Of a stretch of 35,191 bases of DNA, positions 374 to 29,999 are shown one piece after another. This DNA is from Candidatus Tayloriibacteriota bacterium (GTDB lineage Bacteria; Patescibacteriota; Minisyncoccia; Phycocordibacterales; UBA10002): the NCBI GenBank assembly GCA_009694955.1, contig SIBZ01000006.1, positions 1 to 35,191 on the forward strand. The letters are read 5' to 3'. The translations under genes were made by a program, and so were the position numbers. The notes under the pieces were generated by a model. That model saw nothing but the letters and a program-made list of their open reading frames with translations, was not told where the DNA came from and did no database searches. Position 1 is the stretch's first letter. Every line of letters starts with the position of its first letter.

Positions 374-466
374 GCACACAATTATTAGTAGTTAATCGGC
401 AGGAATAGCTACATTGGTAACAATTTGATTAACGTTAAATTGTGTGCACCAGTGTAGCTATTCCTG
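374..466 (+). repeat. Nested inverted repeats in the recombinase leader
   Basis: Two nested inverted repeats end 14 bases before the recombinase ATG. The outer pair is GCACACAATT (374-383) with AATTGTGTGC (438-447). A second pair is 19 nt long with one mismatch: 400-418 (begins CAGGAATAGCTACA) and 448-466 (ends TGTAGCTATTCCTG). A short GTTAATC/GATTAAC pair lies between. The repeats interleave, so the arms are mutually exclusive in part. Serine recombinases often recombine at, or are regulated through, sites beside their own gene, so this could be a crossover site, an operator or an RNA switch. That role is inferred. Confidence 0.6.
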
Positions 467-480
467 TTCCAAAAATATAT

Positions 481-2037
481 ATGCAAAAATTCTTTTTGTA
501 TGCTCGCAAGTCCACTGATGTCGAGGACAAGCAGGTGTTATCTATCGAAGCGCAACTCACCGAATTGCGGGAGTATGCCAAGCGAGAGAATATCGAAATC
601 TCCGCCGAATTAGTGGAAAAACAATCTGCCAAAGTTCCAGGTCGTCCTATTTTTAATAAACTTCTCAATGACATCGAAAAATTCGGCGGAAGTATTCTCG
701 CATGGCATCCAGATCGTTTAGCCCGCAATTCGGTGGATGGTGGTCGGGTGATTTATCTCCTCGACACAGGGAAACTTGCGAGCCTGAAGTTTCCAACCTT
801 TTGGTGTGATTCCACATCACAAGGTAAATTTATGTTGAACATGGCTTTCGGGCAAAGCAAATACTATGTGGATTCTCTTTCCGAAAATACCAAAAGAGGA
901 CTTCGCCAAAAAGTTAGAATGGGTATATTTCCGAGCCAAGCGCCTTTGGGGTATCTCAACGATTCGAGAACAAAGACAATCGTGGTGGAAAAGAAAAAAT
1001 CTCGTATAGTGCGCTTGGCTTTTGAGAAATACACAAAAGGTAATATGCGATTGGAAGATGTGTCAAACTTTTTGGCGAAATCCGGCGCTACAACAAGAAC
1101 CGGAAAGAGAATCTCAAAAACAAAAGCGTCTTTTATCCTCTCAAATCCTTTTTACATCGGACTATTCAAATATGGTGGTGAAATCCACGAAGGAAAGCAC
1201 GAGCCAATCATTTCAAAGAAACTTTTTGATGAAGCACAGGAAATGTTGAAGTTTCGCGGACAACCCGAACGAAAACCACAGAACGAACCTCAACCATATT
1301 GCGGACTTATTTCCTGTGCTTCATGCGGAATGATGATAACTGCTGAAAACAAAACGAAGCGACAGAAAAATGGTAATGTTCATCACTATGTGTATTACAG
1401 ATGTACCAAGAAATCTAAAACGGTTAGATGTCCCGAAATGTCGCTTCGTTCTGAAAAACTAGATGAGCAGTTATCATCCTTAATCAAAAAAGTTTCTTTG
1501 CCCAAAGACTGGGCGGAGGAATTAAATCGTCTTGCTTTGCAAGACCACAAAAACTCCGCCCCGTCTTTGACTGCTTGTGTGGAAGAAAAAAAGAAAAAGA
1601 TTTCTTCTTTGTCGGAAAAGTTAGAGCGACTTCTTACGGGGTATCTTGACCAAGTAATTGACCAGCCAGACTACTGTTTACAAAAAGCTAAACTGCTTTC
1701 CGAAAAGAAGTCGCTCGAAGAAGAAATCTTTAACTTTTCACACAAGCAGAATGATTGGCTCGCACCTTTCCAAAACTGGCTAAAAGACGCTCAATCATTG
1801 GACAAAATTGCTTCTGATTCAGACCTTTTTGCGAAAAAGGTCTGTGCCAAAGAAATCTTTGGCTCGCACCTGCTTCTTGGCGAAAAAACAATCCGTCCCG
1901 CCGAAGGCGGGAATCCGAATTCATTGGCGAAAACGGACGAAACAGCGTGGGCGTGCCTACGGCACGCCCACTCCTTGGTTGGTTCTCAACCGCTAAGTTC
2001 CATTCTGGTGCCGAGGGAGGGACTTGAACCCTCATGA
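481..2037 (+). CDS. Large serine recombinase (resolvase/invertase family)
   Basis: DNA recombinase of the large serine family, which cuts and rejoins DNA through a covalent phosphoserine. The N-terminal catalytic domain has YARKS with the likely nucleophile Ser11 and the DRLARN motif at about residues 78-83. A recombinase domain follows (about 160-260), then a zinc ribbon with Cys pairs (CASC, YRC, RCP; about 280-330) and a Lys/Glu-rich coiled coil. I chose the ATG at 481 because family homology starts at MQKFF; an upstream ATG at 442 would add 13 unlikely residues inside the inverted repeats. No Shine-Dalgarno sequence is visible. Family-like sequence ends near FGSHLLLGEK. The last roughly 50 residues read through a perfect 11-bp palindrome (1947-1971) and 32 bases antisense into tRNA-Leu, ending REGLEPS, a typical antisense-tRNA translation. 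The frame therefore looks extended after insertion beside the tRNA. About 518 residues. Confidence 0.92.
   Translation: MQKFFLYARKSTDVEDKQVLSIEAQLTELREYAKRENIEISAELVEKQSAKVPGRPIFNKLLNDIEKFGGSILAWHPDRLARNSVDGGRVIYLLDTGKLASLKFPTFWCDSTSQGKFMLNMAFGQSKYYVDSLSENTKRGLRQKVRMGIFPSQAPLGYLNDSRTKTIVVEKKKSRIVRLAFEKYTKGNMRLEDVSNFLAKSGATTRTGKRISKTKASFILSNPFYIGLFKYGGEIHEGKHEPIISKKLFDEAQEMLKFRGQPERKPQNEPQPYCGLISCASCGMMITAENKTKRQKNGNVHHYVYYRCTKKSKTVRCPEMSLRSEKLDEQLSSLIKKVSLPKDWAEELNRLALQDHKNSAPSLTACVEEKKKKISSLSEKLERLLTGYLDQVIDQPDYCLQKAKLLSEKKSLEEEIFNFSHKQNDWLAPFQNWLKDAQSLDKIASDSDLFAKKVCAKEIFGSHLLLGEKTIRPAEGGNPNSLAKTDETAWACLRHAHSLVGSQPLSSILVPREGLEPS
1947..1971. terminator. Perfect 11-bp palindromic hairpin near recombinase end
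   Basis: GTGGGCGTGCC (1947-1957) and GGCACGCCCAC (1961-1971) flank a 3-base loop. It lies inside the recombinase frame but after the conserved domains, and 34 bases past the 3' end of tRNA-Leu on the minus strand. On the minus strand an interrupted T-rich stretch follows (GCTGTTTCGTCCGTTTT). It may end transcription of the tRNA unit, but the T-run is weak. Confidence 0.4.
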
Positions 2038-2092
2038 GATTGCTCTCGCTGCGACCTGAACGCAGTGCGTCTGCCAATTTCGCCACCTCGGC
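2006..2092 (-). tRNA. tRNA-Leu (anticodon CAG)
   Basis: A complete class II tRNA of 87 nt with encoded CCA. The acceptor arms GCCGAGG and CCTCGGC pair fully, the anticodon stem CTGCG/CGCAG encloses loop TTCAGGT (anticodon CAG), and there is a long variable arm and a T-loop TTCAAGT. It decodes CUG. The recombinase frame overlaps its 3' end by 32 bases in antisense, which suggests that the tRNA 3' end served as an integration target. It is last in a minus-strand unit behind tRNA-Ile and a structured spacer. Confidence 0.95.
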
Positions 2093-3137: not shown

Positions 3138-4687
<1,550 letters not shown>

Positions 4688-25583: not shown

Positions 25584-25610
25584 ATGAATAGTATAGATTG
25601 AAGACTTTGT

Positions 25611-25721
25611 TCTGGCGACTAGCTACTCTCCCCCGCTCGCGCGAGGTACCATCGCCTCTACAAGGCTTAACTTCCGAGTTCGGAAAGAGATCGGGTGTGA
25701 CCCTTGCGACAAATCACCAGA
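25611..25721 (-). rRNA. rrf: 5S ribosomal RNA
   Basis: About 111 nt. The terminal stem TCTGGTGA/TCGCCAGA pairs fully, and the inner CCCGATCTC, CCGAACTCGGAAGTTAAG and GATGGTAC blocks are typical of bacterial 5S. It lies after 23S and two tRNAs in the same direction. Confidence 0.95.
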
Positions 25722-25790
25722 ACAAAATGTTCAAACTATTTTCTTGAAGACGGGGTAATGGATCCCGATTACAGCGACGTAATCAGGAGT

Positions 25791-25865
25791 TGGCGGAGAG
25801 AGCAGGAATCGAACCTACGTGGCCGGATCTTTAGCCCGGTGCCTTAACCACTCAGCCATCTCTCC
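25791..25865 (-). tRNA. Atypical tRNA, anticodon loop CTAAAGA (AAA by position)
   Basis: 75 nt with encoded CCA and fully paired arms: acceptor GGAGAGA/TCTCTCC, discriminator G, a class II-like 3-bp D stem, anticodon stem CCGGG/TCCGG, T arm GTAGG TTCGATT CCTGC. The acceptor and D arm resemble bacterial tRNA-Ser, but the variable region is only four bases (CCAC). The loop CTAAAGA puts AAA at positions 34-36 with G37, an anticodon not normally used in bacteria (Phe uses GAA). Its amino acid is therefore uncertain. It lies in the 23S-5S transcript. Confidence 0.8.
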
Positions 25866-25974
25866 ACCGAAAGGAACAAAGGATTGATCGGGAAACGCAA
25901 TCTGAAGCAAGGAGGTCGAATGCGGAAAACGACCCCCCGATTCTACCATTGCGTCCCCCAAAAATGCGGAAATT

Positions 25975-26049
25975 TGGAGCGGGCGAAGGGAATTGAACCC
26001 TCGACCCATGCGTTGGAAGCGCAAGGCTCTACCGCTGAGCTACACCCGC
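25975..26049 (-). tRNA. tRNA-Gly (anticodon TCC)
   Basis: A class I tRNA of 75 nt with encoded CCA: acceptor GCGGGTG/CGCCCGC, anticodon loop CTTCCAA, T arm GAGGG TTCAATT CCCTT. It reads GGA/GGG. It lies between 23S and 5S on the same transcript. Confidence 0.95.
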
Positions 26050-26300
26050 CCAAAAATCCTAAATCCATTATCCAGTCTTCAAGATTGCATCCGCCTAAAT
26101 TTGCAAAGCAAATTTGTGCGGATAAACAGATATCAATGTTCACATGGCTCTCTCGCGAATCGCAAAGCGTGAAGCGCATAACGTCAGAAAATTCTGGCGA
26201 TACACGTTGCGCGTTTTACGATACACGTAAAGATTCCATGGAGCAGGATTAATTTTCGTAGTTTACCCACATCCGCTGTTACCAGCGAACGGGGGCTTAC
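26050..26300 (-). other. Spacer between 23S and tRNA-Gly with processing stem
   Basis: Contains the 3' arm of the pre-23S processing stem (26231-26270), complementary to 30027-30065 for nearly 40 bases with few mismatches. A hairpin with AAATTTGC/GCAAATTT is found near 26097-26115. No coding frame. Confidence 0.7.

Positions 26301-29999
<3,699 letters not shown>

Follow-up and report, generated by a model that had tools for sequence, protein, structure and literature searches.

A tRNA-like structure that is cut by tRNase Z has been described in the pre-5S rRNA of Haloferax volcanii (Holzle et al. 2008, as presented in PMC3296008 and PMC7714728). Also known are t-elements, tRNA-like sequences that serve as substrates of RNase P and tRNase Z and that have been built into Haloferax constructs (PMC4946936). 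Bacterial rRNA operons, such as those of E. coli, carry spacer and distal tRNA genes (PMC5179076).

Here, we describe tRNA-shaped elements in the spacer between the 23S and 5S rRNA genes of a Candidatus Tayloriibacteriota bacterium and of other members of its order, which is made up of very small bacteria of the Parcubacteria type. As far as the H. volcanii system is portrayed in the two sources above, the likeness lies in a tRNA-like shape that closely precedes 5S in the precursor; however, that system is archaeal and its tRNase Z cut was seen in vitro, whereas this one is bacterial and we infer cutting from sequence. The spacer elements here are also full cloverleaves with an acceptor stem, often with CCA and one to three in tandem, and most genomes of this order are without a clear RNase Z, unlike the archaeal case as portrayed there. 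Like t-elements, which plant mitochondria also have, they are proposed to offer a tRNA shape as a cutting signal without decoding; t-element cleavage has been demonstrated, whereas cleavage of the spacer elements is predicted and would take place in a bacterial rRNA operon spacer. With the E. coli operon tRNAs they share a site among rRNA genes and, presumably, excision by tRNA enzymes, but the operon tRNAs function in decoding and have standard anticodons, whereas about half of the loops here depart from the standard form and close relatives carry different anticodons. No earlier report of such elements in bacteria was found in the open-access literature that was searched, a corpus that leaves preprints and most subscription papers outside.

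The window, by which we mean the whole stretch of 35,191 nucleotides that was analyzed (contig SIBZ01000006.1), carries the 23S rRNA gene at 26306–29992 (minus strand; RF02541) and, downstream in the transcript, the 5S rRNA gene at 25610–25721 (minus strand; RF00001). The element of interest (herein referred to as element 2; 25791–25865, minus strand) lies between them, 69 nt from 5S and on the same strand, and is preceded in the transcript by a Gly(UCC)-like tRNA (element 1; 25975–26049, minus strand; found by ARAGORN and Rfam), which has U73 and an encoded CCA. The original prediction stated that element 2 is transcribed with 23S and 5S; position and strand agree with this, and it is from position that we infer co-transcription of the three. 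In a 421-nt fold of the spacer, a hairpin (GGGACGCAAU ... AUUGCGUUUCCC; 25890–25959, minus strand) stands between the two elements, and a stem about 20 bp long (UCUUGAAGACUGGAUAAUGGAU paired with AUCCAUUACCCCGUCUUCAAGA; 5' arm in the transcript at 26061–26084, 3' arm at 25742–25765, both minus strand) encloses the hairpin and both elements (z = -6.0). The 5' arm also occurs in the congeneric genomes G008, G004, and G002, and a scan of genome contigs for the enclosing-stem motif returned only three congeners that were already known, together with unrelated genomes.

The rRNA genes of the window have other peculiarities. The 16S gene (3150–4686, minus strand) lies on the same strand as 23S and about 21.6 kb away, so that the rRNA genes are unlinked, and the 23S gene is 3687 nt long with a long AU-rich insertion near 29390–29300; group I intron matches with sub-gathering scores occur in or near the 23S genes of three relatives (G011, G006, and G003; L073, L077, and L079). 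Separately, a serine recombinase-like open reading frame of 531 residues (442–2037, plus strand) overlaps the 3' end of a tRNA-Leu(CAG) gene (2006–2092, minus strand), an arrangement suggestive of integration there.

Element 2 (GGAGAGAUGGCUGAGUGGUUAAGGCACCGGGCUAAAGAUCCGGCCACGUAGGUUCGAUUCCUGCUCUCUCCGCCA) is called by ARAGORN as tRNA-Phe(AAA) at exactly 25791–25865 on the minus strand and matches the tRNA family RF00005 with 59.2 bits (E = 1.6e-10). Its anticodon loop, CUAAAGA (C32 U33 A34 A35 A36 G37 A38), bears out the originally predicted AAA at 34–36 followed by G37, as does the ARAGORN call, and the encoded CCA (after G73) and the four-base variable region (CCAC) are likewise as predicted. 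The further statement that all stems pair holds for the acceptor stem (7/7), the anticodon stem (5/5, with G31.U39), and the T stem (5/5), but the D stem is 3/4 paired (G13.A22 mismatch). The element is well folded in the sense of a cloverleaf alignment but not of thermodynamic stability; of its four arms, the minimum free energy fold (z = -0.87) preserves the acceptor and T arms but neither the D arm nor the anticodon arm, and folding of the isolated element is uninformative in this respect. The resemblance to tRNA-Ser is real in the 5' half, where positions 1–29 share up to 97% identity with tRNA-Ser(CGA) from other families. A shifted anticodon or an intron was considered and rejected: there is no intron-sized insert, and the 5-bp anticodon stem leaves a loop of exactly 7 nt, so the AAA call does not arise from a shift. 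A normal isotype with a shifted anticodon, the outcome named beforehand as one that would overturn the prediction, was looked for and not found.

The isotype of element 2 fits neither amino acid that its parts recall. A tRNA-Phe has a GAA anticodon, where element 2 has AAA and its orthologue in G008 has UUA, and its discriminator base is A73, where element 2 has G73. A tRNA-Ser has a long variable arm, where element 2 and the G008 orthologue have 4 and 5 nt, and an NGA or GCU anticodon, where element 2 has AAA. Two features of a t-element are present, namely a tRNA-like shape in which the acceptor and T arms are intact and a place at the border of mature RNA between 23S and 5S, with which it is probably jointly transcribed.

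The source genome (869 kb in 52 contigs, 89% complete) encodes tRNA-Phe(GAA) outside the spacer and five Ser tRNAs (ACU, CGA, GCU, GGA, and UGA), all with a long arm, and therefore has no need of an AAA tRNA for decoding; Phe(GAA) is likewise encoded in the 99% complete genome of G008. That AAA fills a decoding gap was rejected because Phe(GAA) is encoded in the source genome, and this comparison with the genome's tRNA set favors a non-translational role over the unusual decoding task, both of which the original prediction had offered. One member of that set is itself unusual in bacteria, the long-arm tRNA-Ser(ACU) with A34, which is found in the source genome and in G008 (L026:2232-2323 and L101) and which coexists in the source genome with the ordinary Ser(GCU). 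Element 2 could nevertheless be a working tRNA that reads UUU as Phe or mistranslates it with another amino acid; it has a standard 7-nt loop with U33 and an encoded CCA, and its siting with rRNA genes would imply abundance. Against this stand the Phe(GAA) already present, the UUA and C33 of the G008 orthologue, and the identity elements: G73 and A34 are ill-suited to PheRS, and SerRS requires the long variable arm that is missing here. We regard this reading as highly improbable, and consider it very probable that element 2 does not decode.

Ten genomes of the genus, including the source genome, have a 5S gene together with its spacer. G008 retains elements 1 and 2 between the same flanks, and its orthologue of element 2 is 86% identical over the body, with a CCUUAAA loop and C33, and is called as a stop tRNA with anticodon UUA; element 2 as a conserved isoacceptor is thus rejected, since the orthologue carries another anticodon. 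Between the two genomes, element 2 has changed at 1 of 40 stem bases (with the pair kept), at 4 of 7 positions of the anticodon loop, and at 4 of 5 of the variable loop. Element 1 shows the reverse, with three pair-breaking stem changes and an unchanged anticodon loop. Conservation in the flanks of element 2 equals that in its stems, so this pair of genomes by itself is no proof that the stems are under selection; what it shows is an anticodon loop that evolves fast, rather than stems that evolve slowly.

Elsewhere in the genus the spacer is labile. A full-length orthologue of element 2 occurs in 1 of the 9 other spacers, and one more has the 3' part only; absence in close relatives had been named as evidence against the original prediction, and the element is indeed absent from most of them. 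In G004 (spacer L070), an element with a GAU anticodon stands where element 1 would be, and there is an additional one, a cloverleaf with a branched extension of about 70 nt in the anticodon arm (133 nt in total, z = -4.1), that went undetected by both ARAGORN and the covariance model. G002 has a fusion of an element 1-like 5' half with an element 2 3' half, and G003 has an "AAU" element with C33. No element was found in the other five of the ten genus spacers (G001, G005, G006, G007, and G011).

To the 10 genus loci we added 59 from other families of the order and searched the resulting 69 5S loci with a covariance model built on 29 ordinary class-I tRNAs; genus, family, and order kinship follow the labels given by the search tool, the genomes are largely metagenome assemblies, and one locus (L138) was positioned by motif. 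The survey found 36 elements in 24 of the 69 spacers, one to three in tandem and all on the rRNA strand within the 23S–5S spacer; the weakest two are fragments. By this search the remaining 45 spacers, 5 of the 10 genus spacers among them, have no element, so none is essential. The stems are 96.6% paired (98.3% in the ordinary tRNAs of the source genome and G008) and covary strongly (220 double-changed cells, compared with 64 after shuffling), and the T loops are TTCRANN-like in nearly all elements. The anticodon loop, however, is not 7 nt long or lacks U33 in 20 of the 36, whereas ordinary class-I tRNAs never show this (0 of 51). Across the order these loops look unconstrained, and the elements therefore probably mark cut sites in pre-rRNA rather than read codons, although the other 16 have a normal loop and some of these may be working tRNAs. 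The abnormal loops are unfit for a standard anticodon and, with the anticodon change in G008 and the absence of a visible decoding need, they tell against an unusual decoding task and in favor of the non-translational alternative.

Intact stems could also reflect mere youth, if tandem tRNA genes captured in the spacer were functionless, decaying pseudogenes whose shape has survived so far. The patchy presence and fusions in the genus, the stem decay of element 1 in G008, and the two fragment-like matches of the survey are all in keeping with this. Such pseudogenes would not be expected to combine paired, covarying stems with abnormal anticodon loops in half of the elements, and simulated neutral decay did not produce this excess: under one indel per eight substitutions, and with the ordinary tRNAs of two genomes as ancestors, at most 14% of the ARAGORN-detected descendants had abnormal loops at any divergence tested, against 13 of 27 observed (p ~2e-5). 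The distribution is also at odds with recent capture, as the elements are confined in our sample to one order yet spread across about 20 families of it. We also examined 50 loci from other parts of the phylum, a non-random draw chosen mostly by best 5S scores, of which 32 had both rRNA ends delimited; no spacer element was found there (p = 3e-7 for the order against the rest of the phylum, or 2e-5 with delimited spacers only). We consider decay without function unlikely, though a serious alternative to a retained signal.

A charged element could in principle serve a purpose other than translation by donating its amino acid in aminoacyl transfer, to the cell wall or elsewhere, which would fit an unconstrained anticodon beside an intact acceptor–T half with CCA. 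Indeed, CCA is encoded in 18 of the 36 elements; however, N73 varies among them, so no single synthetase identity is kept, and we think this use extremely improbable.

Returning to a role in pre-rRNA processing, we examined the enzymes that could act on the spacer. RNase P RNA was found in the source genome and most relatives (in the source genome at L217:1501-1869, where by eye the expected L15 loop region is without the GGU motif for CCA pairing), and RNase III has a strong match in nearly all genomes of the order that were searched. In 41 genomes of the order, RNase E/G had no match above the cut-off and RNase Z had only weak matches below it, except in G039, the one genome with a clear RNase Z; M5 likewise had no match above the cut-off in genomes of the order. 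Many of the weak RNase Z matches fall in frames of 630–740 residues that look like RNase J, and in most genomes of the order tRNA 3' maturation may proceed without RNase Z. RNase J, RNase III, and PNPase are reported to be retained in CPR bacteria by a survey of ribosome biogenesis factors (PMC12641178).

We hypothesize, with a probability of roughly 60%, that element 2 is a non-decoding tRNA-shaped RNA that is kept as a cutting or end-protection signal for pre-rRNA between 23S and 5S. Its shape would be retained through recognition by RNase P and by the agent that trims tRNA 3' ends. Cleavage by RNase P would generate the 5' end of the element, RNase III might cleave the stem around it, and the final trimming to the 3' end of 23S and the 5' end of 5S would fall to exonucleases or RNase J, so that the element would serve as a cut site or an end-protecting block that parts 23S from 5S. 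One cut among several elements would suffice, leaving single elements free to decay, fuse, or be replaced; the decay of G008 element 1 in its stems while its loop is kept nevertheless speaks against this reading. For the 23S–5S spacer elements in general, a processing role through cutting or end protection would be shared, and they most likely work like t-elements, as judged by their shape, their place, and indirect evidence against decoding. That the order as a whole uses fast-evolving tandem tRNA mimics that do not decode to cut or end-protect pre-rRNA between 23S and 5S, substituting for 5S maturation by RNase E/G or M5, neither of which was found there, is a broader proposal that we advance tentatively and with somewhat more doubt than belief.

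If this reading is true, reduced bacteria may employ tRNA enzymes in rRNA maturation, as archaea and organelles are known to do. Automatic tRNA annotation would then yield false isotypes at these loci, including the apparent stop-codon suppressor "UUA", and the spacer elements would provide a natural comparative set for what RNase P needs of a substrate once the constraints of decoding are lifted.
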